DNA from: Rhodobacterales bacterium
GTDB lineage: Bacteria; Pseudomonadota; Alphaproteobacteria; Rhodobacterales; Rhodobacteraceae
DNA: 64,000 nucleotides
NCBI GenBank assembly: GCA_002746935.1
Contig: PDRW01000025.1
Coordinates: forward strand, 1 to 64,000
Direction of reading: 5' to 3'
Shown here in pieces: positions 153-58,390 of this stretch. Positions within the stretch are counted from its first letter, which is position 1, and each line of letters opens with the position of its first letter. A program made the translations under genes and the position numbers. Below the pieces are notes generated by a model. That model saw nothing but the letters and a program-made list of their open reading frames with translations, was not told the origin of the DNA and did no database searches.

Positions 153-256
153 TTCAAAGTCCATTATTCCGGAATTCCGGACTATTGGATTAACGGACTG
201 CCAAGCTACCGGACTACCAGACTACCAAGCTACCAGACTGGCAGAACAACAAGACA
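153..256. repeat. Octamer-phased palindromic array, copy 1
   Basis: From 161 the sequence divides without slippage into 8-base words: CCATTATT, CCGGAATT, CCGGACTA, TTGGATTA, ACGGACTG, CCAAGCTA, CCGGACTA, CCAGACTA, CCAAGCTA, CCAGACTG, with weaker words to 256. Bases 161-188 form an almost perfect 28-base palindrome around CCGGAATTCCGG. This is the longest of four arrays in the window and lies between the transposase tail and the 3' end of the DUF2125 gene. Function unknown. Confidence 0.75.
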
Positions 257-331
257 ATCAGCCCCCGCACCGCGGGAGGCTGACGTCATTCCGGTTGAAG
301 GCTTCGGTTGAGGGCTGTGGTTGAGGCCGCT

Positions 332-1345
332 CTACGGCAGCACGATCGGCGGCACCGGGCAGATGGGCGCCGGACCGATCAGAAGCTTCCCATCGGCGAA
401 GCGCAGCGGCACCTTGAGCTTGTCCGGGTTGGCCGACTGCCGGGAAATGGCCTCCAGCGCCCTGCGCACCAGGGGCATGTGCTCCGGGGCGATCGCGCGG
501 GTGGCTTCGGCGAGCTTGAGGATTTCGCGCCAGTTGGTCGCCTCAAGGTTGATCTTGCCGGTGCCGACGCCCTCCGGGCTGACATTGATCTGGCCGGTTC
601 CGGTGATTTTGAGCTTGCCCCAGCGGGCGGTGAGCCGGTTGAGCCGCACCTCGCGCGGCTGCGGGCGTCCGCTGTCGATACTGCGCATGTGCCATGGCTT
701 GTTGAACCGGACCGTGAGTGACGCCGACAGGGTGTCGACCTGTTCCGGAAGGGCCGCGATCTGGCGCAACCGCGCGATGTCCTTGCTCTCCGGCGTGAAC
801 TCGTTGAAGGCCAGCTCGAGGTCGTAGACCGGGGCGCCCTCGGTGGGGTTTTCGCGCAGGGCCACTTCGGTGCTGGTGATGTCGGCAGTCCAGCCGAGCG
901 AAGAGGCGATTTTCAGCGCCTCGCCCTCCAGCACCAGCTGGTCCAGCGGCAGGGCGGGGGTGGTGGCGACGTCGAAGGTTCCGCGCATCTGGTTCGATAC
1001 GATTTCCAGCGTTTCACCGGGAAGGCGCAGCTCCTGTTGCGGGGCGAGCGCGGCGGTCAGGTGGGTCGGCTTGTGGCTTTGCGAAAGCACCTCGACCCAT
1101 GGCACCGACCAGCCGATGCCCGTGCCGGGGTCTTCGATCTCCAACTCCTTGACCGTGGTGTCGAACCGGCTCGGGAAGCCGCTGGTCGCGACCGTGGTGG
1201 TTTCGGCGGTCCAGCCGTCGTCGCGGCCGGCGTCGAGCAAGGCCTGAATCCCGCGTTCGGTGGCTTGGGCCCCGAGATACCAGTAGCCCCCCCAGGCGAG
1301 CGCGGCGACGAGGGCGAGGAAGAGAAGGCGGGTCAGGTAACGCAT
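332..1345 (-). CDS. DUF2125 domain-containing membrane-anchored protein
   Basis: A 337-residue protein with an N-terminal hydrophobic segment (about residues 5-25, RLLFLALVAALAWGGYWYL) that acts as a signal anchor or signal peptide. It is followed by a periplasmic domain with GFPSRFD near residue 56, a word typical of DUF2125 proteins of Rhodobacterales. I chose the ATG at 1345 because AAAGGAT lies at ribosome-binding distance and because the hydrophobic segment then starts at once; the frame itself stays open further upstream. The role of DUF2125 is unknown; envelope association is an inference. It is divergent from the MotA-like gene at 1718. Confidence 0.8.
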   Translation of the reverse strand: MRYLTRLLFLALVAALAWGGYWYLGAQATERGIQALLDAGRDDGWTAETTTVATSGFPSRFDTTVKELEIEDPGTGIGWSVPWVEVLSQSHKPTHLTAALAPQQELRLPGETLEIVSNQMRGTFDVATTPALPLDQLVLEGEALKIASSLGWTADITSTEVALRENPTEGAPVYDLELAFNEFTPESKDIARLRQIAALPEQVDTLSASLTVRFNKPWHMRSIDSGRPQPREVRLNRLTARWGKLKITGTGQINVSPEGVGTGKINLEATNWREILKLAEATRAIAPEHMPLVRRALEAISRQSANPDKLKVPLRFADGKLLIGPAPICPVPPIVLP

Positions 1346-1717
1346 GCGATATATCCTTTCAGGATTCGAACTGAACTCTAGCATCAAACCGGCTATGGAG
1401 CCAGAAAAGCCTTGAATTATTAGGTATTTGGATACGATCTGCTGTTGAGCGCCCCGGCTTTTCCCATGCCGAAACAATACGCGCCCGAATCGCCGGCCGG
1501 CACCGCGTGTTCTTCATCTGTCCGTTGGGCCCCTCCGTGGGGCCGGCTGCGGCAGCCTCCCCCCTGAGCCCCCTCAGCCCCCCTTCAGCTCCCCCTCAGG
1601 CCCCCAAAAGGGCCGGTCCCGGCGTCTCTGCGCCCTTGTCGCCCCCCCCTTGTCGGCCCCGCGGCGAACCCCTATCCTCGCGCGGTGACCGGGTTTTCAG
1701 GGGTAGGGGCCTCGCAG
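1346..1717. other. Divergent intergenic region, C-rich
   Basis: Gene-free stretch between two divergent genes. It holds the ribosome-binding site of the DUF2125 gene on one side and, at about 1540-1665, a low-complexity run of C-rich words (CCCCCTCAG-like) on the side of the MotA-like gene. Promoters for both genes are expected here, but I see no convincing -35/-10 pair. Confidence 0.5.
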
Positions 1718-2902
1718 ATGGATCAGCCAGACCGCGCGGTGGAGCCGCATTTCACACGCCCGAGCTTCCAGTTCGTGGTGATGCTGGTGGTGCTCGGGCT
1801 GGTAGGCGCCGGGGTGTCGCTGATCGCGCCGCAGATCGAAAGCGTGTTCTTCGCCAATCTCTACCTCAACCTGTTCATCGCCGCCGTGTTTCTGTTCGGC
1901 GTCGGGGCAACGCTGTTGCAGGTCTTGCAGGTGCATTCCTCGGTGCGCTGGCTCGAACTGTCTCTGCGCCACGAAAACGGCCATGATCCCAACAACCCGC
2001 CGCGCCTGCTGGCGCCGCTCGCGGGGCTGTTGCGCGGACGCGGCGATGCGATGCAGATCAGCTCGACTTCGGCGCGGTCGATCCTCGACTCGGTCGCCAC
2101 CCGGATCGACGAGGTGCGCGACATCACCCGCTATGTCACCAACCTGCTGATCTTCCTTGGCCTCCTCGGCACGTTCTACGGTCTCGCCACCACGGTTCCG
2201 GCGGTGGTCGAGACCATCAAGTCGCTGGCCCCGGCGGAGGGCGACGGCGAGCTTGACGTGTTCAACCGGCTGATGACCGGGCTCGAAAGCCAGCTTTCGG
2301 GCATGGGCACGGCGTTTTCGTCCTCGCTTCTGGGGCTCGCGGGCTCGCTGGTGGTGGGGCTGCTGGAACTCTTCGCCTCGCACGGGCAGAACCGGTTCTA
2401 CCGCCAGCTTGAAGAATGGCTTTCCTCGATCACCCGGCTGGGCTTTGCCCCGGGCGAAGATGGCGCGGGGGCGGTTGACGCGGGCGACGCGGTTGCGGCC
2501 TGGGCCGCGCATATCGCCCGGCAGGTCGAGACCATGGGCGACATGCAGACCCAATCCGACGCATCGCGCGCCCAGCTCGACGAACGTCTCGGCCATCTTG
2601 TCGAATCGATGGAACGGCTCGCCCGCCAGACCGAGGCCGACGGTGCCCTGGCCCCCTATCTCATCCGCATCGCCGAAGGTCAGCAGCAGATGCTGACCGC
2701 GCTCCAGGATCTCGGCAGCGCGGGCGGCAACAGCGCCTATGTCGATGCCGAGAGCCGGATGCGGCTGCGCTCGATCGACGTGCAGCTCTTGCGGCTTCTC
2801 GAGGAAATGAGCGCGGGCCGGCAGGAATCGCTGAGCGAATTGCGCGGCGACATGGCCACGCTCACCCGGGCGATCCGCCAGCTTGCCGGCGGGCGGACCT
2901 GA
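1718..2902 (+). CDS. MotA/TolQ/ExbB-type proton channel subunit
   Basis: A 394-residue protein with four predicted membrane segments at about residues 17-37, 44-70, 139-165 and 201-225. The last two are the conserved MotA/TolQ/ExbB core: a long cytoplasmic loop sits before the third, and LLIFLGLLGTFYGLATTV is the typical pore-lining helix. The roughly 170-residue cytoplasmic tail is polar and partly helical. I preferred the ATG at 1718, preceded by AGGGGTAGGGG, over a GTG 33 bases upstream. Only one base separates its stop from the MotB-like gene, so the two almost surely form one complex. Housekeeping TolQ, ExbB and flagellar MotA are shorter and have other neighbours; a dedicated stator-like unit is an inference. 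Confidence 0.8.
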   Translation: MDQPDRAVEPHFTRPSFQFVVMLVVLGLVGAGVSLIAPQIESVFFANLYLNLFIAAVFLFGVGATLLQVLQVHSSVRWLELSLRHENGHDPNNPPRLLAPLAGLLRGRGDAMQISSTSARSILDSVATRIDEVRDITRYVTNLLIFLGLLGTFYGLATTVPAVVETIKSLAPAEGDGELDVFNRLMTGLESQLSGMGTAFSSSLLGLAGSLVVGLLELFASHGQNRFYRQLEEWLSSITRLGFAPGEDGAGAVDAGDAVAAWAAHIARQVETMGDMQTQSDASRAQLDERLGHLVESMERLARQTEADGALAPYLIRIAEGQQQMLTALQDLGSAGGNSAYVDAESRMRLRSIDVQLLRLLEEMSAGRQESLSELRGDMATLTRAIRQLAGGRT

Positions 2903-2903
2903 C

Positions 2904-5081
2904 ATGGCCCTGACCCGGCGCGCCACCCGCAACGTCTCGTCCTCGATCTGGCCGGGCTTCGTCGATGCGATGACCGCGCTGCTCATGGTGCTGATGTTCG
3001 TGCTGACCATCTTCATGGTGGTGCAGTTCGTGCTGCGCGAGACCATTCAGGGGCAGGAAAGCGAACTCGATCTGCTCCATGCCGAGGTGGCGGCGCTCGC
3101 CTCCGCACTGGGGCTCGAACAGGAGCGCACCGCCTCGCTTTCGGCCGAGGTGGGGATGCTCAACGCCAATATCGCCTCGCAGGAGGTGGAGGCGCAGCGT
3201 CAGGCCGCGCTGATCGCCTCGCTGAACGATCAGGTCGCGGCGAAGGACACCGCCCTTGCCGAGGCCAGCACCAGGATCACCGCCTTCGAGGCCCAGGTGG
3301 CGGCATTGATCGCGGCGCGCGACGAGGCGGTGGCGGCGGGCGAAAGGCTCACCGCGCGGCTCGGCGAGGCCGAGGCCGCCAATGCGGCGCTGATCTCCGA
3401 ACAGGAAGCGCTGAACCTCGCGCTGGCCCAGGCCCGCGAGGAGGTCGACGCCCGGACCGAGGCCGCCCGCCTCGCCGCGGCCCGCCGCGAAGCGCTGGAA
3501 GCGCTGGTGGCCGATCTTCAGGCGTCGGCGGCGGAAAGCGACGCCTCGCTGCGGGCGGCGCTGACGGCGCTCGAAGAGCGGGAGGCGACGCTGGCGGAGA
3601 CCGTGGCGGCGCTGGAGGCCCGCGAGACCTCGTTTGGCGAACTGCTGGCCCAGCTCGAGGCCGAAACCACGTCGCGGATGGCGCTCACCGATGAGGTTGC
3701 GGCGCTGGGCACGGAGCTTTCGGAAAAGGAAAAGGCGCGCCTTGCGGAGGCCGCCGCGGCGGTGGCGCTGCAAGCCCGGGTCGCCGAGCTTGAGACCTCT
3801 CTGAGCGATGAGGAAGCCGCGCGCCTTGCCGAGGTGGCCGCCGCCGAGGCGCTGCGGGCGCGGGTGGCGGAGCTTGAAGCTTCGGTTTCCGAAAACGAGG
3901 CCACGCGCCTCGCCGAACAGGCTGCCGCGCAGGCGTTGCGCCAGCAGCTGTCCGATGCGCAAGCGGCGCTGAGCGAAGAGGAGACCGCCCGGCTTGCCGA
4001 GGCCGCCGCGGCAGAAGCCTTGCGCGAGCGGCTGGAGAATGCCGACAGCGAGCTTACCGCCATGACCCTCGCGCTCGAGGAGGCGCGCAAACGCGCCGAA
4101 GAGACGCTGACCCTGCTTGCCGCCGCCAATGCGGCCAGGGAGGATCTCGACCAGAAGCTTGCCGCGGCGCTGCTGGAGAACGAGACGCTGCGTGCCAGCA
4201 CCGGCGACGGGGAAGATCTGCGCCGGCAGCTGGCCGAGGCTCTCGCCGCCCGGCGCGCCGCCGAGCAGCAATCGGCGCAGGCGCTCACCGAAGCCGAACG
4301 TCAGGCGGCGCTGCTGGCCACCGCCGCCACCGCGCTGGAACAGGAGAAAGCCGCCAGCAGCGAGGCCCAGCGCGAGATGGCCCTGCTCAACGAGCAGATG
4401 ACGGCGCTGCGCACCCAACTCGGCCAGTTGCGCGCCCTGCTCGACGATTACGAGCAGCGCGATGTGGCGGCTCAGGTGCAGATCGAACAGCTTGGCTCCG
4501 ACCTCAATACCGCCCTGGCCCGTGTGGCCGCCGAGGAACGCAAGCGCGCCGAAGCCGAGGCCGAAGCCCGCCGTCTCGCCGAGGCCGACGCCGCCCGGCT
4601 CGCCGAAGAGGCCAGGGATCTCGCCAGCTACCGGTCCGAGTTCTTCGGCCGGATGCGGCAGATCCTCGGCGACCGCGAGGGGGTGAAGATCGTCGGCGAC
4701 CGGTTCGTGTTTTCCTCCGAAGTGCTGTTTGCGCCCGGCAGCGCGGTGCTGTCGCCCGGCGGGCAGGCGCAGATCGCCCATGTGGCCGAGATCCTCTCGG
4801 AGGTATCGGACGAGATCCCGCCGGAGATCGACTGGGTGATCCGGGTCGACGGCCATACCGACCGCACCAAGGTCGGCGCCGCCAGCGATTATGCCGACAA
4901 CTGGGAGCTCAGCCAGGCGCGTGCCCTGTCGGTGGTGCATTACATGACCGGCCAGCTTGGTTTTGCCCCGGAGCGGCTGGCGGCGACGGGCTTTGGCGAG
5001 TTCCAGCCGGTGGCGCTGGGCAACAGCCCGGCCGATTATGCCGCCAACCGCCGGATCGAGCTGAAGCTCACCGAGAAATGA
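2904..5081 (+). CDS. MotB-like protein: one membrane helix, long coiled coil, OmpA peptidoglycan-binding domain
   Basis: 725 residues. The N-terminal part has one membrane helix preceded by SSIWPGFVDAMTALLMVLMF; the Asp in PGFVDAMTALL matches the proton-carrying Asp of MotB (E. coli 'ADFMTAM'). Residues about 50-590 are almost entirely Ala/Glu/Leu/Arg coiled coil, with four in-phase 28-residue repeats at 278-389. The end (about 600-725) is an OmpA-like domain with VDGHTDRTKV, NWELSQARAL and ANRRIEL, the peptidoglycan-binding signature. The ATG at 2904 follows the MotA-like stop by one base. Architecture (MotB plug, rod, peptidoglycan anchor) resembles stator B subunits, but the rod is several times longer than in flagellar MotB. 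Biological role unknown. Confidence 0.8.
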   Translation: MALTRRATRNVSSSIWPGFVDAMTALLMVLMFVLTIFMVVQFVLRETIQGQESELDLLHAEVAALASALGLEQERTASLSAEVGMLNANIASQEVEAQRQAALIASLNDQVAAKDTALAEASTRITAFEAQVAALIAARDEAVAAGERLTARLGEAEAANAALISEQEALNLALAQAREEVDARTEAARLAAARREALEALVADLQASAAESDASLRAALTALEEREATLAETVAALEARETSFGELLAQLEAETTSRMALTDEVAALGTELSEKEKARLAEAAAAVALQARVAELETSLSDEEAARLAEVAAAEALRARVAELEASVSENEATRLAEQAAAQALRQQLSDAQAALSEEETARLAEAAAAEALRERLENADSELTAMTLALEEARKRAEETLTLLAAANAAREDLDQKLAAALLENETLRASTGDGEDLRRQLAEALAARRAAEQQSAQALTEAERQAALLATAATALEQEKAASSEAQREMALLNEQMTALRTQLGQLRALLDDYEQRDVAAQVQIEQLGSDLNTALARVAAEERKRAEAEAEARRLAEADAARLAEEARDLASYRSEFFGRMRQILGDREGVKIVGDRFVFSSEVLFAPGSAVLSPGGQAQIAHVAEILSEVSDEIPPEIDWVIRVDGHTDRTKVGAASDYADNWELSQARALSVVHYMTGQLGFAPERLAATGFGEFQPVALGNSPADYAANRRIELKLTEK
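3735..4070 (+). repeat. 84-bp tandem repeats encoding 28-residue coiled-coil units
   Basis: Four consecutive 84-bp units inside the MotB-like gene encode variants of A-RLAE-AAA--ALR-RVAELE-S-S--E, each 28 residues or four heptads long. The DNA copies have diverged but keep length and phase, so the rod seems to have grown by duplication of whole heptad blocks. Confidence 0.8.
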
Positions 5082-5554: not shown

Positions 5555-5573
5555 TCCGGGGCGCGCGCGGTGC

Positions 5574-7112
5574 TCAGCGTTTCATCGCCGAGCGGAAGTC
5601 CGACAGCCGGAAGGCGCCGGCCAGATGTCCGAACAGGAAGTAGCTCGCCCCCCCGGGCACGACCAGCGCCACCAGCGCCAGCGCCCGCCAGCCGGGCGTG
5701 TAGAACAGCCCGCCGAGCCCGAGTGCGAGCGCCCAGAGCACCGCGCCCATGGCGAGCGAGGCGGCGGCGATCCGCCAGATCCGTGCCCGGAACCGCGCGT
5801 CGAAGCGGGTGTGGTCGCCCATCCGGGCGGTGCCGCGCCACAGCAGCGCCACCATCGCCCAGGCCGCGAGCGTGGTGCCGAAGGCGGCGGCGGTATAGCC
5901 GATCAGCGGGGCAAGCCCGATGGCGATCCCGGCATTCACCAGCATCGACACAAGCGCGTAGTAGAACGGGGTCCTGGTGTTTTCGCGGGCGAAATAGACC
6001 GGTTGCAGCACCTTTTGCAGCACGAAGGCGGGGAGCCCGAGGCCGTAGATCTGCAACGCCACCGCAGTGGCGGCGCTGTCTTCGGCGGTGAAGCGGCCGC
6101 GTTCGAACAACACGCTGACCAGCGGCAGCGGCACCACGACCAGCGCCACCGCGGCGGGCACGGTCAGGGCGAGGGCCATCTCGCCCGCCCGGCTCAGCGA
6201 ATGCCGCCCGCCGGCATGGTCATCGGCGCGGAGTTTGCGCGACAGATCCGGCAGCAGCACCACCCCGATGGCGATGCCGACCACGCCGAGGGGCAATTGG
6301 TAGAGCCGGTCGGCGTAGTTCAGCCAGGCGATCGCGCCGTCGAAGAAACTCGCCACCTGGCGGCCGATCAGCAGGTTGATCTGCACCACGCCGCCCGCCA
6401 GCGCGGCGGGGAAGGCGACGATCGCGAGACGCTTCAGCTCCGGGGTCATCCGCGGCCGTTTCGGGAGCAGCCGGTAGCCCGCCCGCGCCGCCGCCACCCA
6501 GACCAGCGCCAGCTGCGCCACCCCGGCCACCGGCACCGCCCAGGCGAGGGTCAGCCCCATGTCCCAGCTGAGCAGCGCGCCGAGGCCGAGGGCCGCGATG
6601 AAGATCACGTTGAGCAGCACCGGCGCGGCGGCTGCGGCGGCGAAGCGGCCGGTGGCGTTGAGCACGCCCGAGAGCAGGGCGGCGAGCGAGATGAACAGGA
6701 TATAGGGAAAGGCGATGCGCCCGAGCAGCACCGTCAGCTCGAAACGTTCGTCGGCGAGAAAGCCCGAGGCCATCGCCAGCACCAGCGCCGGCATGAAGAT
6801 CTGCACCACGAGGGTGAAGCCGATCAGCAGCGTACCGAGCCCGGTGAAGGCATCGCGGGCAAAGCCCAAGGCATCCTCGCCGGCTTCCACCTTTTTGGAA
6901 AACGCCGGCACGAAGGCCATGTTGAACGCCCCTTCGGCGAAGAACCGGCGGAACATGTTGGGCAGTGAAAACGCCACCACGAAGGCTTCCGCCACCGGAC
7001 CGGCGCCCAGCGCCGCGGCGATGGTGATGTCGCGCACGAAGCCGAGCACCCGGCTCGCCATGGTCCACATGCCGACGGTCAGAAAGCCGCGTACCAGCCG
7101 GATCCCCGCCAT
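5574..7112 (-). CDS. murJ: Lipid II flippase MurJ
   Basis: 512 residues, all hydrophobic with many membrane segments as expected of the 14-helix MOP-superfamily flippase. The N-terminal part MASRVLGFVRDITIAAALG followed by AFSLPNMFRRFFAEGAFNMA is diagnostic of MurJ. It moves lipid II across the inner membrane for peptidoglycan synthesis. Its ATG shares one base with the glnD stop (TGATG), so glnD and murJ are coupled, an arrangement I know from other Rhodobacterales. It converges on the YkgJ gene with 19 bases between. Confidence 0.95.
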   Translation of the reverse strand: MAGIRLVRGFLTVGMWTMASRVLGFVRDITIAAALGAGPVAEAFVVAFSLPNMFRRFFAEGAFNMAFVPAFSKKVEAGEDALGFARDAFTGLGTLLIGFTLVVQIFMPALVLAMASGFLADERFELTVLLGRIAFPYILFISLAALLSGVLNATGRFAAAAAAPVLLNVIFIAALGLGALLSWDMGLTLAWAVPVAGVAQLALVWVAAARAGYRLLPKRPRMTPELKRLAIVAFPAALAGGVVQINLLIGRQVASFFDGAIAWLNYADRLYQLPLGVVGIAIGVVLLPDLSRKLRADDHAGGRHSLSRAGEMALALTVPAAVALVVVPLPLVSVLFERGRFTAEDSAATAVALQIYGLGLPAFVLQKVLQPVYFARENTRTPFYYALVSMLVNAGIAIGLAPLIGYTAAAFGTTLAAWAMVALLWRGTARMGDHTRFDARFRARIWRIAAASLAMGAVLWALALGLGGLFYTPGWRALALVALVVPGGASYFLFGHLAGAFRLSDFRSAMKR

Positions 7113-9898
7113 CAGTCGAGTGCCCGTTCCGCGCCGCGCTGGATCGCTTCGCGGAGTTTCATGTCCAGCGTCTCCAGCCGCGCTTCGCTGTGGAATTTCA
7201 GCCCGAACATGTCTGTCACATAGAAGGTGTCCACCACCTGTTCGCCATAGGTGGCGATCACGGCGGACGCGATCTGGACGTTGTTGGCCGCGAGGCAGCG
7301 GGTGAGGTCGTAGAGCAGGCCGGGGCGGTCGCGGGTATCGACCTCGATGATGGTATAGATCTCGGAGCCCTCGTTGTCGAAGATCACCTGGGTCGGCACC
7401 TTGAAGGCGCGTTCGCGCTTCTTCAGCCGGTCGCGCTGGCGCATCGCCTCGCTTGCCACCACTTCGCCCTTCAGGGTCTTGTCGATCATGGTCCTGAGCC
7501 GGGGGAGCTTGCCTTCGTCATAGGGCTTGCCCTCGCGGTCCTGAACCCAGAACACCGGCGTCGCCCAGCCGTCGCGCGTGGTGTAGGTTCTGGCGTCCAC
7601 CACATTGGCGCCGACCAGCGCCAGCGCGCCGGCGAGCCGCGAGAAGATGCCCGGGTGATCGGCCAGCGCGAAGGAGGCGCGGGTGGCGTCGCGGTCGGGG
7701 TCGGCGGAGAGGGAGATGCGGATTTCGTCTTCACTTATCCCCTTGAGAAGATTGGCGAAGATCACATGGTCGGCGGTCTGGAGCCCCTGCCAATAGGGGT
7801 CGCCATGGCGCCGTGTCTCCCGGTGCAGCGCCTTGCTGTCCCAGTCGGGCAGGGCGGCGCGCAACGCCTTGCGCGCCTCGCTCGCCCGCGCCCCGGTCGA
7901 CAGCGCCTCGATCCCGCCTTCCAGCGCCTGCCGCGTGAGGCGGTAGAGATCGCGAAACAGCGTGGCCTTCCAGTTGTTCCATGTGGTGGGGCCGACGCCG
8001 CGGATGTCGCAGACCGTGAGCACCAGCAGCAGATCGAGCCGCTTGCGGGTGCCCACCGCCTTGGCGAAGGCGTTGACGGTGCGCGGGTCCGAAAGATCGC
8101 GCTTCTGGGCCACGTCCGACAGCAGCAGATGCGAGCGCACCAGCCATTCGACGGTGGCGATCTCCTCCTTCGTGAAGCCGAGACGGGTGCAGATCGGCCG
8201 GGCGAGTTTGGCGCCGAGGATCGAATGATCCTCGACCCGGCCCTTGCCGATGTCATGGCAGAACACCGCGAGGTAGAGCACCCGGCGGTTGACCCCGGCG
8301 CGCAGGATCTCGGTCGAGACCTGCAATTCCTCCGCCCGCTCGCCGCGCTCGATCTCCGCCAGCGCGGTGATGCACTGGATGGTATGTTCGTCGACCGTAT
8401 AGGCGTGATACATGTTGAACTGCATCATCGCCACGATCGGCTCGAATTCGGGGATATAGGCCGCGAGCACCCCAAGCTCGTTCATGCGCCTGAGCGCGCG
8501 TTCCGGGTTGCCGTGTTTGAGCAGCAGATCGAGGAAGATCCGCGCCGCTTCGCGGTTGTTTCGCAGCTCGTCGTCGATCAGTTCCAGATGCGCCGCCACC
8601 AGCCGCATCGCGTCGGGGTGGAGGTGGACGCCGGTGCGCAGGCCTTCCTCGAACAGCCTCAGCATGTTGAGCTTGTCGGCGAGGAAGGCGGCCTCGTCAG
8701 CCACCGCGAGGCGCCCCTGCCGCTCGACGAAGGGCGCGCGCACCATGCGGCGGCGCTTGAACAGGCGAAACAGCTTGGGCGCCCGCTTGAGGTGCTGCCC
8801 TTCCAGCGCGGTCAGCAGGATCCGGGTGAGGTCGCCCACCTTCGTGGCATGGCGGAAATACTCCTGCATGAAATGCTCGACCGCGCGGCGTCCGGCGCTG
8901 TCCTTGTAGCCCATCCGGGCGGCCACCTCGACCTGGAGGTCGAAGGTCAACTGGTCCATCGCCCGGTTGGTCACAAGATGCAGATGCGACCGCACGGCCC
9001 AGAGAAATTCGTCGGCGCGGCGGAAGGTCTCGTATTCCTCGGCGGTGAACACGCCGTGCTCGACCAGCTCGCGGATATGTGTCACCCGATGGGTGTATTT
9101 TGCCACCCAGAACATGGTCTGAAGATCGCGCAGCCCCCCCTTGCCCTCCTTCACATTGGGTTCGACCACATAGCGCTGGCCCTGCTTCTGGTGCCGCTTC
9201 TCGCGCTCGGCCAGCTTGCCCTCGATGAATTCGGCCTCGGTGCCCTTGAACAGATGCGCCCAGAGCTGGTCGTCGAGTTCGCGGGCAAGGTCGCGGTCGC
9301 CGCAGATCGCGCGGGTTTCCAGCATCGCGGTGCGGATGGTGAGGTCTTCGCGCCCGAGCCGGAGGCAGTCCTCCACCGTGCGCGCCGCGTGGCCGACCTT
9401 CAGCCGCAGATCCCACAGCATGTAGAGGATGCTCTCGATCACGCTCTCGGCCCAGCCGGTGAGCTTGTAGGGTGACAGGAACAGCAGATCGACGTCGGAA
9501 TGCGGCGCCATCTCGAAGCGGCCGTAGCCGCCCACCGCAAGCACCGCGAGCCGTTCGCCGGTGGTATTGATCTGCACCGGATGGAGATGCCGGGTGGCAG
9601 TATCGTGGACCGCGCGCAGCACGGCGTCGGTCAGCCAGGCATGGGCACGCACCACCGGGTGGCCGGCAAAGGGCTGCGCCTCGAAGGCCGTCTGGATTCT
9701 GGCGCGGCCCACTGCCAGAGCGTCGCGCAGCACCGAAACGGCGGCCGCGCGCATCCGGCCCGCGTCGCCCGCCGCCTCGTCCATACCCGCCGCGATCGCG
9801 CCGGCAACCGCTTCAGAATCGAAGATCTCGCCCGCCGGGCAGATCAGCCTGTCATCGCCCTCGTCAAAGCGATGGGCGGCGAAGTCAGTATCCGGCAC
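7112..9898 (-). CDS. glnD: Bifunctional [protein-PII] uridylyltransferase/uridylyl-removing enzyme GlnD
   Basis: 928 residues, a normal alphaproteobacterial GlnD length. Nucleotidyltransferase motifs GGYGR (123-127) and SDVDLL (134-139) are intact. An HD phosphohydrolase centre lies at CHDIGKGRVEDHS (HD at 548-549). Two ACT domains follow, near residues 750-800 (GANVVDARTYTTRDG) and 850-920 (DTRDRPGLLYDLTRCLAANN). It senses glutamine and adds or removes UMP on PII proteins, controlling nitrogen metabolism. The start is a GTG at 9898 that overlaps the 3' end of the upstream lipoprotein gene by 14 bases; murJ follows with a one-base overlap. Confidence 0.95.
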   Translation of the reverse strand: MPDTDFAAHRFDEGDDRLICPAGEIFDSEAVAGAIAAGMDEAAGDAGRMRAAAVSVLRDALAVGRARIQTAFEAQPFAGHPVVRAHAWLTDAVLRAVHDTATRHLHPVQINTTGERLAVLAVGGYGRFEMAPHSDVDLLFLSPYKLTGWAESVIESILYMLWDLRLKVGHAARTVEDCLRLGREDLTIRTAMLETRAICGDRDLARELDDQLWAHLFKGTEAEFIEGKLAEREKRHQKQGQRYVVEPNVKEGKGGLRDLQTMFWVAKYTHRVTHIRELVEHGVFTAEEYETFRRADEFLWAVRSHLHLVTNRAMDQLTFDLQVEVAARMGYKDSAGRRAVEHFMQEYFRHATKVGDLTRILLTALEGQHLKRAPKLFRLFKRRRMVRAPFVERQGRLAVADEAAFLADKLNMLRLFEEGLRTGVHLHPDAMRLVAAHLELIDDELRNNREAARIFLDLLLKHGNPERALRRMNELGVLAAYIPEFEPIVAMMQFNMYHAYTVDEHTIQCITALAEIERGERAEELQVSTEILRAGVNRRVLYLAVFCHDIGKGRVEDHSILGAKLARPICTRLGFTKEEIATVEWLVRSHLLLSDVAQKRDLSDPRTVNAFAKAVGTRKRLDLLLVLTVCDIRGVGPTTWNNWKATLFRDLYRLTRQALEGGIEALSTGARASEARKALRAALPDWDSKALHRETRRHGDPYWQGLQTADHVIFANLLKGISEDEIRISLSADPDRDATRASFALADHPGIFSRLAGALALVGANVVDARTYTTRDGWATPVFWVQDREGKPYDEGKLPRLRTMIDKTLKGEVVASEAMRQRDRLKKRERAFKVPTQVIFDNEGSEIYTIIEVDTRDRPGLLYDLTRCLAANNVQIASAVIATYGEQVVDTFYVTDMFGLKFHSEARLETLDMKLREAIQRGAERALD

Positions 9899-11063
9899 CG
9901 GTGAAACTTCTCGGTGCGGGGTCGATCACCACGATTTCGCGGTTGCGGATCTGCGCCACCGCAAGGCCGCGTTCGGTGGTGCCATCGGGCAGCAGGCGAA
10001 ACACCCCGCCGACGCCGATGAAACCCTGGCCCTGGGTGAGTGCGGCGCTGGTGAGCGCATCGGCCTTGCCGGCCTTGACCAGCGCGCCGATGGCGGCGAT
10101 GCCGTCATAGGCGAGCCCGGCAATGGCGTGCGGGCTCTTGCCATAGGCGGCGAGGTAGCGCTGCCGGAACTGTTCCTGAAGACCGGGATCGGGCATCGCA
10201 AACCAGCCGTTTTGCAGTCCGGGCAGAGCGCGCGCCGAGTCCGGCACGTCCCAGCGCTGAAGGCCGATGTACTGGACCTTGCCGGGGGTCAGCCCGTTTT
10301 CCGGCAGGAGCTGCGCAAGAAAGGGAATGGCCCCGTCGGTTCCCGAGGTCAGAAACACCGATTGCGCTCCGGAACTGCGCGCCGCCTTGACGATCCCGGG
10401 CACGGCGTTGATCACCCCGTTCTGGCTGAGCTCGAAGCTCTGCACGCCCGCCTGAGCGGCGCCCGGGGTTTGCGAGATTGCCCGCAGCACGGCATTGCGC
10501 CCAAGCGTTTCCGCCGGGTTGTCGCCGTTGACCACGAGAATGCTGCCCTTGCCGGAGGCGGCGGCATGGCGCACCAGACGGCGGGCGGTGTTGTCGAAAG
10601 TGTTGCCGAGCACAAAGACATTGCCGCCGGCGACTGCGGGGTTGTTGGAGAAGGCCAGCACGTTGACCCCCGGTGCCGCGGCTCCCGCGGCGGCGGCGTT
10701 CTGGGCGTAGACCGGGCCGAGAATGATCCTGGCGCCACCGGCAACCGCCTTGGAGGCGGCGGTGGCCGCCTGTTGAGGGTTGCCGCCGGTCGGGTAGACC
10801 GCGAGGTTGATCTTCACCCCGTGTAGCTCCGACATGGCAAGCCGTGCGGCGTTTTCGAGCGAGGAGGCCAGCGCGTCATCCGCCGCATTGCCGCTGCCCG
10901 AGGGCACCAGCAAAGCCACCGGCACCGGTTTCGAGGTGTCGATTTTCGGCCCCCCCCCGGTGGCCCCGGTGAACCCGTCGCCGCAGGCGGTGAGCCAGAC
11001 CAGCGACAGCATCGCGACGATCACCGCCCGAAACTTGCGGGCACCCAACAAAAACGCAAACAT
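9885..11063 (-). CDS. Penicillin-binding protein activator, LppC/LpoA-like lipoprotein
   Basis: 392 residues. The N-terminus is a lipoprotein signal with lipobox LTAC (Cys 27). The rest has the periplasmic type-1 binding fold of LppC/LpoA proteins (PVALLVPSGSG near the start, then GGARIILGPVYAQNAAAAG). In enteric bacteria LpoA activates PBP1a from the outer membrane; the alphaproteobacterial homologues are shorter and less studied. I chose the ATG at 11063 because AAGGAT precedes it and the signal peptide begins there. It is divergent from rsmI, as is common for this pair, and its end overlaps the GTG start of glnD. Confidence 0.85.
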   Translation of the reverse strand: MFAFLLGARKFRAVIVAMLSLVWLTACGDGFTGATGGGPKIDTSKPVPVALLVPSGSGNAADDALASSLENAARLAMSELHGVKINLAVYPTGGNPQQAATAASKAVAGGARIILGPVYAQNAAAAGAAAPGVNVLAFSNNPAVAGGNVFVLGNTFDNTARRLVRHAAASGKGSILVVNGDNPAETLGRNAVLRAISQTPGAAQAGVQSFELSQNGVINAVPGIVKAARSSGAQSVFLTSGTDGAIPFLAQLLPENGLTPGKVQYIGLQRWDVPDSARALPGLQNGWFAMPDPGLQEQFRQRYLAAYGKSPHAIAGLAYDGIAAIGALVKAGKADALTSAALTQGQGFIGVGGVFRLLPDGTTERGLAVAQIRNREIVVIDPAPRSFTGAGY

Positions 11064-22068: not shown

Positions 22069-22219
22069 CCGGGGGGTCCACCCCCGGACACACCCCTGAC
22101 CCGGGGGGTCCACCCCCGGACATACCCCTGACCCGGGGGGTCCACCCCCGGACACACCCCTGACCCGGGGGTTCCACCCCCGGACACACCCTTGACCCGG
22201 GGGTTCCACCCCCGGACCC
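22069..22219. repeat. 32-bp tandem hairpin repeats
   Basis: Four full 32-base units start at 22069, 22101, 22133 and 22165, and a partial fifth at 22197. Each reads CCGGGGG(G/T)TCCACCCCCGG plus a CACACCCCTGAC tail. Within each unit CCGGGGG and CCCCCGG can pair as a short hairpin. Units differ at only one or two bases. The array ends in a copy of the GAGTATTTG element, whose usual 5' part is just such a hairpin, so this looks like amplification of that part. Confidence 0.9.
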
Positions 22220-31129: not shown

Positions 31130-31280
31130 GGCGTTCTCCTCTGGGTCTTACAACAGAGATATGGGGCCCCGGGGCGGAGATCGTCAGAGGGTGAAGCGTG
31201 CAGGTTTTAACTTCGGCCGGTTCCTGCCGAAACCGGGGCTGCAGGCGGTGGGGCTCCGGGGAATATGGTCGTCTGTTTGT

Positions 31281-31328
31281 CCGGACTGCCAGTAGTCCAT
31301 TAGTCCGGAATTCCGGACTAATGGATTC
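31281..31328. repeat. Octamer-phased palindromic array, copy 2
   Basis: In-phase 8-base words CCGGACTG, CCAGTAGT, CCATTAGT, CCGGAATT, CCGGACTA, ATGGATTC. Bases 31296-31325 are a perfect 30-base palindrome centred on GGAATTCC. Confidence 0.85.
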
Positions 31329-39417: not shown

Positions 39418-40443
39418 CTACCTTGTGCAGATCGCCTGCAACCGTGCCCAGTCCTCGGGCGGCAGCAGCGGTACCGCCTCTTCGGCGGAGATACGGTCGG
39501 CCTCGATCAGCCCGAGCGTGGTCTCGCCGGTCTGGTCGAGGGCGAGGGCATAGGGTGTGATCCGCACCCCGGCGGCAGAGAACCGCTCCAGCAGCGGTTC
39601 CCTGGCAATTGCCGCCGGGGCCTGAGCGAAAACCGCTTCGCCATAGCTGTCGAGCACCCCGCCGGGGAGTTCTCCGGTGGTCAGCAGCCGGGCGGTGGCC
39701 AGGGGACCGGCGTGATCGAGCAGGGGAGCCATCGGGTCGCGGTCGGAGGCCCGCTGCACCTCGGCGAGGATGAACCCCGCCGCCACGTCAGGCTGTTCGT
39801 AATCCTCGACCTGCGCCCGGTCGAGCAGCACGATCTTGCCCGGAAGGTGCCGTGCCCCGTCAATCCCGGAGGCAAGCACCCGCACCTTCAGTGTCTCCGC
39901 CGCCCCGGCAACCCGCGCCGCCAGCCGGTCGAGCGCGGCCTGTCCGAGCTTGTCGCCGCAAGGCGCACCGGCCACCCGTTCGATCCGCTCGAGCAGATGC
40001 ATGCCGACAGAGGCCCGCACCGCGTCAGGCAGAACCGAGAGCGTATGCCGGGTAAGGGCAGACGGCAGCCAGACCGCCGCCGCCGCAAGCATCAGTGCGG
40101 CAGCCGCAGTCGTGACCGCCAGCCTGAGCCGGCCCTTGCGCGGGTGGGATCGCTCGATGGCGCGTCGTACGGTCTCGATTGCCTCGATCATCAACGGCTC
40201 GGCGATCTCGAGCGTCTCGGCCTCGTCCATGGCGGCGGAAGGGGAATAGAGTGCCGGGCGTGCACCGGGGTTCAGCCGCCGCACAGCGGGCAGCGACCAA
40301 TGCGCGAGCGGCCGCCCGGACATGTCGGCGAGGGTGAGGGTGGCGTCACCGATGGAGACGGCAACATCAAGCCGCCGCGCCTCCGGGGCGCTCTGCCAGA
40401 GGCCAGGGGCTTCCAGCCGCTGATATTTCCTGAGGGCCGTCAT
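39418..40443 (-). CDS. Uncharacterised single-pass membrane protein
   Basis: 341 residues. I do not recognise the family. The N-terminal about 100 residues look cytoplasmic (SIGDATLTLADMSGRPLAHWS, then Glu-rich), one membrane helix lies at about 108-128 (LRLAVTTAAAALMLAAAAVW), and a roughly 210-residue periplasmic part follows with repeated Ala/Leu helices and an intact-looking globular pattern (PGKIVLLDRAQVEDYEQPDV). The topology resembles an anti-sigma or sensor-like protein, but no sigma factor is adjacent. Start at ATG 40443; the frame upstream only runs through the octamer repeat. Confidence 0.7.
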   Translation of the reverse strand: MTALRKYQRLEAPGLWQSAPEARRLDVAVSIGDATLTLADMSGRPLAHWSLPAVRRLNPGARPALYSPSAAMDEAETLEIAEPLMIEAIETVRRAIERSHPRKGRLRLAVTTAAAALMLAAAAVWLPSALTRHTLSVLPDAVRASVGMHLLERIERVAGAPCGDKLGQAALDRLAARVAGAAETLKVRVLASGIDGARHLPGKIVLLDRAQVEDYEQPDVAAGFILAEVQRASDRDPMAPLLDHAGPLATARLLTTGELPGGVLDSYGEAVFAQAPAAIAREPLLERFSAAGVRITPYALALDQTGETTLGLIEADRISAEEAVPLLPPEDWARLQAICTR

Positions 40444-40795
40444 CGGGGCCGGGACTGCTCGTTGCTCGTTTGTGGGGGAAGATAGCGCGGGCGGGTGGCA
40501 AGCGTCCAGTTTTTCCGGGGCGTGTGTGGTCGGGACGACAAAGTCCAATAGTCCGGAATTCCGGTATTCCAGTAATCCAGTAGTCCGGAATTCCGGACTA
40601 TTGGACACCCACCTCGCCAAAGCTGACCGGCAGGATCCCGGCCTCTACAGGAACCTGGCCCGCTTCCAACCCAAACCCCGGCCTGTGTCACACCGCCCTG
40701 AAACGCGTCGGGAAACAATGGGTTCACCCATGAAAACAGAGCGTTGCACGACGCCCCCCGACGCCCCCCGGCAAATCCCCGCTCGCAAACCCCGC
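40444..40795. other. Intergenic region with octamer array copy 3
   Basis: 352 bases between two minus-strand genes. It holds the third octamer array (40537-40608) with a large hairpin; the remainder shows no supported gene. The promoter of the downstream membrane-protein gene should lie between the array and 40444. Confidence 0.65.
40537..40608. repeat. Octamer-phased array, copy 3, with 22-bp inverted repeat
   Basis: In-phase words GACAAAGT, CCAATAGT, CCGGAATT, CCGGTATT, CCAGTAAT, CCAGTAGT, CCGGAATT, CCGGACTA, TTGGACAC. Arms 40543-40564 and 40585-40606 are perfect 22-base complements separated by 20 bases, so the whole array can fold into one long hairpin or two smaller palindromes. Confidence 0.9.
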
Positions 40796-50054: not shown

Positions 50055-50062
50055 GGCCGCTG

Positions 50063-50120: not shown

Positions 50121-50124
50121 CGGG

Positions 50125-52764: not shown

Positions 52765-52871
52765 CGCGGGATCTGCGCGAAACGAAGTCATATTGCCGGA
52801 GACGGTACGTCGGAAAGAGGAAAGAGGCCCGGACCACCCCTCACGGACACCACCCCCAGTCGGGCCTCCTG

Positions 52872-52906
52872 CGGGCGCATTCCAGTATTCGGGATGCGCC
52901 CGTTTT
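52872..52906 (+). terminator. Intrinsic terminator after the Usp gene
   Basis: CGGGCGCAT (52872-52880) pairs perfectly with ATGCGCCCG (52894-52902), the stem extends inward by three more pairs, and TTTT follows. Ends the pobA-usp side of transcription. Confidence 0.9.
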
Positions 52907-53933: not shown

Positions 53934-54155
53934 AGGCACTGGCGGCGGCACCTGGCAAGGCCATCATTTTTCCGGACTGTCCGGCTTCCGGCGACGGCAA
54001 CGCCGGTCAAGATGCCGGGGCTGAAGCTGACCGAAGCCGACCGGTGGTGGGCGGGGTTTTCGCCCGGCCTTGCTTGCCGAAATGTCTGGCAAGACCCGCG
54101 GCACCCGCGGCAGGCCGGGAGACGCATTTCCGGGGCGCGTGACAAAGGCTGGCCC

Positions 54156-54953: not shown

Positions 54954-55543
54954 GGAGACCCTTGAATTCACAGGGGGCCACGCGGTCATGATCGGAGGAA
55001 TCATCGCGCGGCCCGTGTCTGGAATGTGCCGAATTTGTGGCAATAGGACAAGGTCATTGATGAAAAAAGACTGTTTCCGCCTTCTTTCGTCAAAGTTTTC
55101 CACAATGTTGCAGTTTTCTGAACCATATGCAGGCCAGAATGCGGATGATTCGCCTGACGGCCCCCCCCACACGCGGCTCCCAAGGCTGACGGGAGTGGAT
55201 CTTGAGCCGGATTCACGGAGTATCAGCGTAAATTCAAGGTGTTACAGGCAAGGGGTCCAATCAGGATTGCGTCATTTGGCTGGATTGGCGGTGCTGTGCG
55301 GAGGTTCCGCAGGGGGCGGTAAGGGCGTTGCAGATCGGGCCTTTTGCGGGTCGCGGCAGTAAGCCCGGCGATTCGGGAACGGGTATGATCGTCTTGGCGC
55401 TCCGCCGGTTGGCAACATTTCGACGGCCCGCGGCGAGGGGCAGGCCGCCTCCGGCTCGGTCCGGCAGGTGAGTCGCCCTCATGTGGATGGCGCTGGACCT
55501 TGCCTGCCTTGCATGGTTATCTCCGCCCAACCGGGAGGGCAGC
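54954..55543. other. Gene-free region with A/T-rich patch
   Basis: 590 bases between divergent genes. 55030-55130 is clearly A/T-richer than the surroundings (GATGAAAAAAGACTG, TTTTCCACAATGTTGCAG) and probably contains the promoter of the minus-strand membrane protein. No gene is supported; short frames on both strands lack motifs. Confidence 0.5.
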
Positions 55544-55738
55544 ATGGGCCGAATACTCGCTTACATCCTGGGTGCCGCGATGATCCTGGTGGGGGTGGTG
55601 GCGCTCGTTGGTGCCGTCGAGGTGCTCATCGGCGGCGGCAGTACCGAGGCCATCGCCCAGAGCTTTCTGGTGCCCGCGTCGCTGTTCGTGGTTGGCGGCT
55701 TCGTGATCTGGATGGGGATGCAGTCGGGGCGCAGATAA
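55544..55738 (+). CDS. Small two-helix membrane protein
   Basis: 64 residues with two hydrophobic helices (AYILGAAMILVGVVALVGAV and FLVPASLFVVGGFVIWMGM). The ATG at 55544 has GGGAGGGC upstream, which supports translation. No family recognised. It converges on fabB with about 70 bases between. Confidence 0.6.
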   Translation: MGRILAYILGAAMILVGVVALVGAVEVLIGGGSTEAIAQSFLVPASLFVVGGFVIWMGMQSGRR

Positions 55739-55805
55739 CGTGCCGGGGAAGCGGACGTCCGCTCCGCCCGGTGCCCCGACCCGTCGCCCGGTTCAGCCGC
55801 CCGCT

Positions 55806-57035
55806 TCAGCCGCGGAACCGGCTCAACACCATCGAGCCGTTGGTGCCGCCGAAGCCGAAGGAATTGGTCATCACCGAATCGAGCCCGGCGTTTTCCACCA
55901 GCGTCGTGGCAATCTCGCCCGGGTTGATGCCCGGATCGAGGGTTTCGACATTGATCGACGGGGCGATGAAATCGTGCTCCAGCATCAGCAGGCAATAGAC
56001 CGCCTCCTGCGCGCCGGTGGCGCCCTGGCTGTGGCCGGTCATCGACTTGGTGGAACTGATCGGCGGCGTGTTGCCTTCGCCAAAGACCCGCCGCACCGCC
56101 TCCACCTCGCCGACATCGCCCACCGGCGTCGAGGTGCCATGGGCGTTGATGTAGCTCACCTTGCGGCCTTCGGGCAGGGTCTCGAGCGCGAGCCGCATGG
56201 CGCGTTCGCCGCCCTCGCCGGAGGGGGCCACCATGTCATGGCCGTCGGAGGTGGCGCCGAAGCCGGTGACCTCGGCGTAGATCTTCGCCCCGCGCGCCCG
56301 GGCGTGCTCCAGCTCTTCCAGCACCAGCATCGCCCCGCCGCCGGCGATCACGAAACCGTCGCGATCAGCATCGAAGGCGCGCGACGCCCGTTCCGGCGTG
56401 TCGTTGTATTTCGAGCTCATCGCGCCCATCGCGTCGAACAGACACGACAGGGTCCAGTCAAGCTCCTCGCCGCCGCCGGCAAACATGATGTCCTGCTTGC
56501 CCATCATGATCTGCTCCGAGGCGACGCCGATATTATGCAGCGAGGTCGAACAGGCCGAGGTGATCGAATAGCTGATACCCTTGATCTTGAAGGCGGTCGC
56601 AAGGTTGGCGCTGATCGTCGACGACATGCATTTCGGCACCGCAAACGGCCCGATCCGCTTGGTGGCGCCGGATTTCAGCACCGTCTGATGCGCGGCGAAC
56701 ATGGCCGAGGTCGACGGCCCCCCGGAGCCCGCGATCACCCCGGTGCGCGGGTGCGACACCTGTTCCGGCGCCAGCCCCGCATCGGCAATCGCCTGCTGCA
56801 TCGAGATATGGGCATAGGCCGCGCCCGGCCCCATGAAGCGCAGCGTGCGCTTGTCGATGAAATCGGCCGGATTGATCTGCGGCGCCCCCGCGACCTGGCT
56901 GCGAAACCCATGCGCCTGCATGGCCTCGTTGGCGGTGATCCCGGATTTCCCGGCCTTCAGGTTCTCCAGCACCTCTTTGGCAGTGTTGCCGATCGGCGAG
57001 ACGATCCCGAGCCCGGTGACGACGACGCGACGCAT
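55806..57035 (-). CDS. fabB: Beta-ketoacyl-ACP synthase I
   Basis: 409 residues, close to E. coli FabB along its length. [17 protein letters not shown] start, active Cys in [14 protein letters not shown], His in [14 protein letters not shown] and [13 protein letters not shown], and C-terminal SFGFGGTN. Elongates acyl-ACP, including the unsaturated branch with FabA. ATG 57035 has AAGGAGGAGAAC upstream. In Rhodobacterales fabB usually follows fabA; here it is about 7 kb from the probable fabA at 63983 and on the opposite strand. Confidence 0.94.
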
Positions 57036-57130
57036 TGCGTTCTCCTCCTTGAGTTCGCCCATCTGTCTAGGGCAGGGGGCGGGTCCGGGCAAGGCGAATG
57101 GAGGCGCTGCCGGCCTTCCGGGCGGCCCCC

Positions 57131-57192
57131 TCTTCCTCTTTATTCCCGGGCCAAATACTCCGGGGGAGTTCGAGGGGGCAGAGCCCCCTCGT
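57131..57192 (-). repeat. G/C hairpin plus GAGTATTTG-type element, copy f
   Basis: On the minus strand, past the ppk2 stop: GAGGGGGCTCTGCCCCCTC hairpin, then CCCCCGGAGTATTTGGCCCG and GGAATAAAGAGGAAGA. Same order as copies c, d and e, and again directly downstream of a gene on the same strand. Confidence 0.8.
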
Positions 57193-57210
57193 CCCCGCTG
57201 CTTCAATCCT

Positions 57211-58017
57211 TCACAGGAAATCCTTGTGTATCTCCGGCACGAAGGTCTGGTCGGCCATCGGCGGGCGGACATAGCCCTTCTGCGGCGGGCGTTCCTCGAG
57301 CACGATATCGTCGGGCGTCACATCCTCATAGGGCACCTGGCTCAGGAGGTGGCTGATGCAGTCGAGCCGCGCGTGTTTCTTGATGTCGGAATTCACCACG
57401 AACCACGGCGCCTGCTTGATGTCCGTATGCGAGAACATCATGTCCTTGGCGCGGGAATATTCGTTCCAGCGCTTGCGGCTTTCGAGGTCCATCGGTGAGA
57501 GCTTCCAACGTTTCGTCGGGTCGGTGAGCCGTGACTGGAAGCGGCGTTCCTGTTCCTCGTCGGAGACCGAAAACCAGTATTTGATCAGATGGATGCCGGA
57601 ACGCACCAGCATCCGTTCGAACTCGGGGGCAGAACGGAGAAACTCCTCGTATTCCTCATCGGTGCAGAAGCCCATGACCTTCTCGACCCCGGCGCGATTG
57701 TACCATGACCGGTCGAAGATCACCATTTCACCCGCGGCGGGCAGGTGTTTGACGTAGCGCTGAAAATACCACTGGGTCTTCTCGCGTTCGGTGGGGGCGG
57801 GCAGGGCCACCACCTCGCAGACGCGCGGGTTCATCGCCGCGGTGATGCGGCTGATGGTGCCGCCCTTGCCCGCGGCGTCGCGGCCTTCGAAGATCACCAC
57901 CATCTTGTAGCCGGTGGCCTTGATCCATTCCTGCATCTTGACCAGTTCGATCTGGAGCCGTTTCAATTCGGCCTCATAGGTCTTGTTCTTGATCTTCGGC
58001 TGAGATGTGCGTGCCAT
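57211..58017 (-). CDS. ppk2: Polyphosphate kinase 2
   Basis: 268 residues. [20 protein letters not shown] is the PPK2 Walker A segment, [19 protein letters not shown] the Walker B/lid motif, and [15 protein letters not shown] the next conserved block. One-domain PPK2 enzymes phosphorylate nucleoside diphosphates (class I) using polyphosphate; class cannot be settled here. ATG 58017 has GGGGGAC upstream. Confidence 0.94.
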
Positions 58018-58334
58018 GCTGTCCCCCGTGGCTTGGCTGGCGCAGGGCTTTTGCCCCGTCTTCGGCTTGTCATGGTTACAACACATAGCGAAAAGGCTTC
58101 GATTCGCCACGTTTCCTCCGGCGCCGGGCCGTGGCGGCGGGTGGAGGTCCGCCCCGCGGCCCTTCGCCGCCTGCCGCGCAAGAGGGGCGGGGGCCTGGTG
58201 CGGATCATGCGGTTTTGGGGACGCGGCAGATCAGGTCGCCACCCTTGCGGGGCGGCTGCGGGGCGCGGCCAGACCGCCCCGGCTGACCTGATCTGATATG
58301 CTGATGTAAAACGAGAAAACTGCGGCCAGCATGT

Positions 58335-58390
58335 CCAATAGTCCGGAATTCCGGACTATTGGTATTCCGGACTTCCGGAAACACAGACGT
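58335..58390. repeat. Octamer-phased palindromic array, copy 4
   Basis: In-phase words CCAATAGT, CCGGAATT, CCGGACTA, TTGGTATT, CCGGACTT, CCGGAAAC, ACAGACGT. Bases 58335-58362 are a perfect 28-base palindrome, the same as in copy 1 apart from two bases. Confidence 0.88.

Follow-up and report, generated by a model that had tools for sequence, protein, structure and literature searches.

The four arrays of 8-base words identified in a 64,000 nt stretch of contig PDRW01000025.1 (positions 1 to 64,000, forward strand) from a Rhodobacterales bacterium, GenBank assembly GCA_002746935.1 (the whole stretch from now on referred to as the window), are members of a family of small hairpins built of such octamers, dozens of which are dispersed between the genes of this genome and which is a little-studied kind of dispersed repeat. 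The family has a conserved core, is extended to one side, carries a tail with fixed spacing and avoids the gaps between divergent genes, and sister species harbour arrays of other words. We judge, with somewhat better than even confidence, that the arrays are copies of a dispersed, non-coding and non-autonomous intergenic module similar to the RIB/BIME-1 elements, in which the octamer array itself is the hairpin.

The genome analysed comprises 2.8 Mb in 94 contigs (given below as C numbers) and is 83.9% complete. The core of the element is a 30-bp hairpin, TCCATTAGTCCGG-NATN-CCGGACTAATGGA, and a genome-wide search with at most three mismatches revealed 50 copies and none in the reversed control, confirming a dispersed family. 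At the same tolerance the core was absent from 393 genomes of the family belonging to other genera (one per genus, a set standing apart from the six same-genus genomes, G001–G006), and an exact 17-mer of the core was absent from G001–G006 and from 139 other relatives. A strict word scan, demanding TCC at word positions 1–3 or GGA at positions 4–6, was run on 849 kb consisting of the window and 40 further stretches (35 tiling most of contigs C65, C63, C41 and C4 and the rest of C28, and five chosen for their matches) and gave 25 arrays, against none in the reversed sequence; the control is sound, but as the tiled contigs were large ones in which copies had been seen beforehand, the density of arrays cannot serve as an unbiased figure for the whole genome. 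In de novo lag counts over the same 849 kb period 8 did not stand out (3 clusters at lag 8 and 24 at lag 12), since the majority of copies are degenerate or short. An exact 18-mer scan hit 17 loci in genome contigs and five in viral contigs, none of them with flanking octamers of the family kind (L055 and L058 start at a contig edge, with one side unseen), and BLAST of four stretches against plasmids returned only one weak match of 34 bases. Matches of encoded proteins to plasmids of Pseudorhodobacter and Paracoccus suggest that the genome may belong to Rhodobacteraceae or a neighbouring group. Palindromes with a CCGGAATTCCGG core, by eye lacking an octamer phase, occur at L049 and L053 in the cyanobacterium Oculatella sp. 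LEGE 06141. A chance origin of the family was rejected on the empty reversed controls together with the phase control and the random intergenic points given below.

To describe the repeats, 57 core copies were read from 1.117 Mb taken around known matches and along large contigs. In a symmetric hairpin TCC and GGA lie 8 apart, so that the phase within one 30-bp core is forced and some three words of each array cannot count as separate evidence. Outside the core the first flanking words were in phase in 26 of 114 cases, the other seven phases having 0, 2, 3, 3, 3, 5 and 12; this excess is the independent evidence for the strict 8-bp phase proposed in the first-pass annotation. Extra octamers were found only to the left in 12 copies, only to the right in 14 and on both sides in none, leaving 31 bare cores, and they number 0 to 5 in-phase words per copy, with the word TCCGGAAG repeated five times consecutively at C30:13079. 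The octamers abut, and unique spacers between repeats are absent. When the copies with extra words were oriented by their tail (described below), 18 of 22 extensions pointed away from it, as did 12 of 12 with at least two words; for confident tails only, the figures are 12 of 14 and 7 of 7. Seen by eye, the words decay with distance from the tail at C28:160, C13:16474, C27:69432 and C82:50548. As octamer number varies between copies, and arrays of about 3 to 16 units of other words were read in sister species (20 fetched regions and five other loci), growth by octamer duplication, one of the two origins suggested earlier, is well supported. The accompanying statement that the element is not a plain mobile palindrome stands in one half only: the number of octamers does vary, but a conserved core with fixed ends (the 50 copies), a tail common to many copies and bare hairpins in 31 of 57 make it also a dispersed palindrome of the REP/RIB kind.

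Alignment of the copies on their cores revealed the one-sided tail. Searching with WATCARNNNNTTR, which we take to be the consensus of integration host factor (IHF), matches of at least 8/9 were counted and types were assigned at no less than 7/9. Matches at the higher threshold start at +21 in 21 copies and at +20 in two (type A) and at +28 in four (type B), the background being 399 matches in 1.117 Mb, both strands. At the lower threshold 31 copies are of type A, 11 of type B and 15 of neither, giving an IHF-like tail in 42 of 57 copies compared with 11 of 925 random intergenic points under the same test. Over the first 90 bases of the tail the 31 type-A copies together contain 19 occurrences of the motif GTYAAC, and all but one of these, 18, lie at 64, 65, 75 or 76, where about one would be expected from the intergenic background, and in 7 of 11 type-B copies a GGTTRAC-type motif occurs at +44 and nowhere else in the first 90 bases. 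The type-B tail often begins near TTTGAATRTG. The letters between the sites (+21 to +64) vary by eye while the distance stays fixed, the tail has T-rich positions at +8 to +11, and no conserved GTAG or CGTC tag was seen at the foot of the palindrome in the flanks of 35 copies. Judged by its letters, GTYAAC resembles a CtrA half-site, and positions 64 and 75 are 11 bp apart, one helical turn; the full CtrA site is given as TTAA-N7-TTAA, with a period matching this offset (PMC6180460).

Some copies have been duplicated locally. In C66 (5910–6330, L152) a 161-bp unit is tandemly repeated three times, every unit containing the hairpin, an IHF-like site and GTTAACC, and paired duplications of the element together with parts of its flanks occur at C30 72124/72442 and C2 12977/13214. 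The stem was assessed over 403 pair cells from all 31 type-A copies, of which 96.3% are standard, and six cells in three of 13 pairs are changed on both sides (mean of shuffles 0.86); a first count gave 97.0% and five cells on 28 copies, a set from which C89:13043, with its broken stem, had been left out along with one member each of the C2 pair and the C66 trio. Over all 57 copies 92.8% were paired, and 11 cells in five pairs were double-changed compared with 2.49 in shuffles.

A covariance model built from the same 28 type-A copies (E up to 1, both strands) gave 125 matches in the own genome, seven weak ones in G004, two in G002 and none in the other four relatives, and most of these nine, when read, were arrays of octamers or palindromes in octamer phase that use different words: G004 has (CTCTAGAA) and (ACCGGAAA), G002 has (ACCGGAAA), and both have mixed CCGG words following a type-B-like junction. 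With at most three mismatches and overlapping matches included, (ACCGGAAA)x3 was counted 96+124 times in G004, 41+66 in G002, 2+1 in G006 and 0+1 in G001, and was absent from the own genome, G003, G005, 73 genomes of other genera and the reversed control; the loci L333, L334, L294 and L289 held no strict array. When arrays of more than four units were read, (ACCGGAAA)n was found at 16 places in G002 and G004, ten of which share the junction TC-ACCGG; the leader side could be read at 11 of them, and at nine of these TTGAC stands 22 to 26 bases away (junction and TTGAC both judged by eye). A 9/9 IHF match at +17 accompanies each of two (CTCTAGAA) arrays with about 15 units, and a third, of 3.6 units, has an 8/9 match at +33. 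The sequence (CTCTAGAA)x3 was found in none of 394 genomes of the family (a set without other members of the genus) and in no viral contig. A strict lag test detected no octamer array in 400 kb of G001 and one in 400 kb of G004, and five of the sister arrays lie at or nearly at contig ends. In G006, contig C18 carries an array of TTTCCGGT (L287, 1499–1525; 3.4 units) with GTTAACC 44 bases off, which is the type-B distance.

The type-B junction ACAYATTCAAAT was matched in 129 of 394 family genomes, the reversed control being much emptier, an excess that may reflect codon usage; of 30 loci available, 19 outside the genus were read and showed no octamer array. Within the genus it is present in five of seven genomes, and arrays adjoin it in the own genome, in G004 and at one of two places in G002, not in G006.

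Two of the window sites were compared with the corresponding places in relatives. At site 40537 both flanks were matched in G001, G004 and G006, with about 15 to 75 intervening bases that hold no array (G005 is partly N), and at site 31281 only the side of the AMP-binding gene is common to G001, G002, G004 and G006, with no array beside it. Flank identity is about 67 to 89%, and the orthologous gaps are too diverged for terminal inverted repeats or target-site duplications, the ends of a MITE, to be read. The single place seen to be shared between species is that after a 686-aa gene in G004 and G002; an extension of this orthologous site to three species was rejected, the own copy of the gene being a paralogue (by eye).

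Exact (ACCGGAAA)x3 was also present in two IMG/VR contigs, both without a megablast match among the INPHARED phages, and (CCGGAATT)x3 in one viral contig. One of the two IMG/VR contigs with (ACCGGAAA)x3, L337 (3300039456, G+C 0.48, 14.8 kb), contains four (ACCGGAAA)-type arrays at 4778–4817, 7065–7091, 8545–8596 and 9904–9939, three of them beside TACGTAA and one just before an open reading frame starting MARKNRITLIGHVG (SSB-like by eye). These two contigs hint that octamer arrays of the CCGG type are not confined to one genus.

The gene setting was analysed with genes from a simple purpose-made caller, not a curated annotation. Leaving out four sites at edges and three inside called frames, 50 of the 57 own sites could be classified as 32 tandem, 15 convergent and 3 divergent, the general gaps of at least 100 bases being 239, 89 and 107, respectively. 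Divergent gaps are thus avoided (3/50 against 107/435, p = 0.0007), which in terms of these gene calls suggests a placement at the 3' ends of transcription units. In the 42 oriented copies the gene ends next to head and tail are 3'/3' in 14, 3'/5' in 14, 5'/3' in 11 and 5'/5' in three, and among 20 array regions of G002 and G004 the 13 that were classified are convergent in six cases, tandem in seven and divergent in none.

Within the window a word-by-word reading was made of the four arrays, which the strict scan places at 160–215, 31280–31327, 40544–40607 and 58334–58381, only a few bases from where they had been reported. Array 1 (160–239; all features here are on the forward strand) starts with a diverged core at 160–189, with two mismatches, continued by rightward-decaying in-phase octamers, and on its left side bears a type-B-like tail junction, ATTTACATATTCAAAG, at 144–159 without an IHF match (best 4/9); near-identical counterparts of this junction are found at C82:50548, C13:16474 and C4:2537. 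Array 2 (31280–31327) has the extension words TCCGGACT and GCCAGTAG followed by a perfect 30-bp core at 31296–31325. Array 3 (40543–40607) has two CCGGAATTCCGG centres, 22-nt arms that are 100% complementary and 20 nt apart, and its core at 40576–40605, while array 4 (58334–58381) begins with the core (58334–58363), carries two extension words after it and has a weak type-B left tail with an IHF match of 7/9 at +28 and no GGTTRAC. The arrays are richer in A/T than their surroundings, as noted before (G+C 0.49, 0.50, 0.48 and 0.48 compared with 0.60, 0.64, 0.65 and 0.68 in 300-bp flanks), and the z-scores of their RNA folds are -3.2, -5.1, -10.9 and -7.0. Perfect palindromes, which had been ascribed to all four, are seen in copies 2 and 3 and by eye in copy 4 (28 bp), but copy 1 reaches 91% over 22-nt arms. 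An intergenic position, likewise ascribed to each, applies to copies 2 and 4; copy 1 has a DUF2125 gene on one side and, on the other, the end of a transposase-like frame that the contig edge truncates, and copy 3 is inside a called frame with a TTG start (39418–40620), probably due to an over-extended start. A known RNA family was rejected for the arrays, as no curated Rfam model matched the window at gathering scores. Elsewhere in the window, at 22069–22217, there is a tandem repeat with a 32-bp unit, 4.7 copies and 96% matches.

The frame beside array 1 (3–125) is the C-terminal end of a transposase-like protein (LRRIGAR...YQAGYAST*), truncated by the contig edge; a Pfam search with its 40 residues gave no match, and we assume it to be IS630-like. 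Its C-terminus recurs at the end of C48, and transposase-like C-terminal ends (YQAGYAST* and IQNAGYNST*, both presumably IS630-like) were observed in the window, at C28:94821–94894 and at the end of C48, in each case adjoining or close to an octamer array at a contig end, as if the arrays were landing sites. At the start of contig C2 in G004 (L322, 1–140) a (CTCTAGAA) array follows immediately on a transposase end (DDE_Tnp_1_2, 29.0 bits against a Pfam cut-off of 29.2). A Y1_Tnp (RAYT) domain had no match in the genome, which is 83.9% complete as stated.

According to the explanation that we favour, a RIB/BIME-1-like module, each copy would be about 65 to 115 bp long and consist of two halves, a folding octamer array and a tail. 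In the tail an IHF-type site would stand at a set spacing, and GTYAAC would occupy either of two positions separated by one turn of the helix. In the own genome the array half would have settled as the 30-bp hairpin core. Replication slippage or hairpin-templated repair may add the octamers, for the most part at the tail-distal end, and whole modules would spread through a trans-acting transposase or through copying between loci, as may be supposed because the same word recurs at unlinked loci. Copy number and shared words establish the dispersal; the mobility of the module is inferred. Between species the word would be replaced while period and setting persist. The predicted binding of IHF would bend the DNA and, together with the hairpin, could create a nucleoprotein or RNA 3'-boundary element after genes, in analogy with the RIBs; such a boundary role has been proposed for the RIB/BIME-1 elements of E. 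coli. A bolder version, which we regard as improbable, is that the tail, with its IHF-type bend and a GTYAAC anchor at 44, 64 or 75 bp, directs how palindromic words of 8 bp grow, unit by unit and with polarity, and are replaced at dozens of loci throughout the genus, by means of a recombinase or repair process; tail-directed growth would then give each species its own word and be a spacer-less analogue of a leader-driven array.

Several observations weigh against the RIB/BIME-1-like module. An IHF-like tail is missing from 15 of the 57 core copies; of the window's four, three belong to this group and lack a convincing tail, and that of the fourth is weak. The IHF, CtrA and promoter readings of the tail are predictions from consensus letters. 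Four of the 22 extended oriented copies carry one word on the tail side, and the enrichment in convergent gaps is not significant (p = 0.09). No mobilising enzyme was found, an all-against-all comparison of 283 flanking proteins giving no cluster larger than four, nor was a filled/empty pair at single-base precision or a target duplication, the flanks in relatives being about 67 to 89% identical. Only three of the 16 (ACCGGAAA) arrays have a nearby IHF match of at least 8/9, at differing places, and TTGAC stands in its stead in nine of the 11 with a readable leader side (by eye), so that it is a matter of judgement whether these arrays and the type-A module have a common origin. Word turnover compares different loci and not one locus with two words, and since copies within one genome are related, the covariation of the stem is only moderate evidence that the hairpin is being kept.

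That the element is a plain REP/MITE-like mobile palindrome, whose octamer phase is a by-product of hairpin spacing and chance slippage and whose tail is a transposon end with a spacing fixed by ancestry and not by function, we consider unlikely, though the most probable of the alternatives. In its favour, core and tail are conserved as a unit, 31 of 57 copies are bare cores, and copies have been duplicated locally in C66, where three follow each other at 161 bp, and in C30 and C2. It accounts poorly for the sister arrays of other words, for extensions that are one-sided and in phase, and for letters between +21 and +64 that vary by eye with the spacing kept, and the Y1 transposase was not found in the 83.9% of the genome that is available. 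The strong hairpins (z -3.2 to -10.9), the T-rich positions at +8 to +11 and the avoidance of divergent gaps would also fit intrinsic terminators or stabilisers of 3' untranslated regions, a hairpin with a T-rich tract selected at gene ends, but a terminator needs neither an IHF site nor GTYAAC at set distances, and the copies show little strand preference (head at a 3' end with tail at a 5' end in 14 of 42, the reverse in 11), so we attach a low probability to it.

Lower again is our estimate for a promoter or regulator-binding array, with a tail promoter of CtrA/IHF or sigma-70 type firing into the octamers and the transcript or the DNA titrating a protein. The 11-bp offset of GTYAAC fits the CtrA site TTAA-N7-TTAA (PMC6180460), and TTGAC stands 22 to 26 bases from the junction in 9 of 11 (ACCGGAAA) arrays (by eye), but no -10 box was established, the 3' end of a gene often lies beyond the array, and as the words differ between species a single reader protein would have to change with them. 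Least probable of all, and with a very slight chance in our view, is an enzyme-driven polar array in which a recombinase anchored at the tail would, via IHF bending, add or exchange 8-bp units; it would explain the polarity of the extensions, the distances of 44, 64 and 75 at which the anchor motif stands, which approximate helical turns, and the four copies in which words by eye decay with distance from the tail, but the enzyme was not found, slippage suffices for growth, and spacers or inserts were not seen. The significance of the family is that one period comes back in sister species with words of their own, in association with an IHF-type site and gene 3' ends. Clean arrays in G004 and G002 and decayed hairpins in the own genome form the two ends of a natural series, which lets one ask how short arrays spread, how REP-like palindromes arise and whether protein-DNA architecture steers repeat growth.

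When comparing with known systems, no such family appeared among the open-licence papers listed for octameric, heptameric and intergenic palindromic repeats, and looking for five of the repeat words in print turned up one unrelated paper. Closest among described kinds are the heptamer arrays treated further below and the RIBs, reportedly described by Boccard and Prentki in 1993 as IHF-binding 3'-end repeats in E. coli. The RIB/RIP/BIME-1 elements have in common with the present family intergenic palindromes, tens of copies, an IHF site (here by consensus letters) and a position at the 3' ends of transcription units, but the hairpin sequence is unrelated to the E. coli REP, the octamer periodicity and extension belong to the family described here, and a single hairpin with a tail replaces the paired REPs. 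REP/REPIN sequences are likewise short intergenic hairpins in many copies, but they go with a RAYT transposase; here no Y1_Tnp match was found in a genome that is 83.9% complete, and the core has no conserved GTAG/CGTC tag beside it. A CRISPR leader also stands on one side of its array with an IHF site and a further anchor motif, the arrays here being spacer-less with units of 8 bp.

Correia/NEMIS of Neisseria is a small non-autonomous repeat, almost always intergenic and with an IHF site in its longer form (PMC2229807), and so resembles the module in size, IHF-type site and location; terminal inverted repeats and target duplication are reported there, none being shown here, and octamers occur only here. 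The first-pass annotation, which knew of no described family with this structure, went too far, as apart from the E. coli RIBs dispersed intergenic heptamer arrays have been described, (GGGAATC)n in Xanthomonas, GGGGA(C/T)T in Nostoc and heptanucleotides in Calothrix, in an account that calls reports of bacterial tandem repeats of 6–9 bp rare (PMC4692102). Both groups have a short tandem unit at dispersed intergenic loci, many sharing one word, and vary in length and sequence between close species. The unit is 8 bp here and 7 bp there, the words hold a CCGG or CTAG palindrome in the one case and G-runs in the other, and in that account most heptamer loci are common to close species, whereas sharing is seen here at one place only; the one-sided IHF-type tail and the turning of arrays into hairpin cores in the own genome set the present family apart from the heptamer arrays as they are described there.

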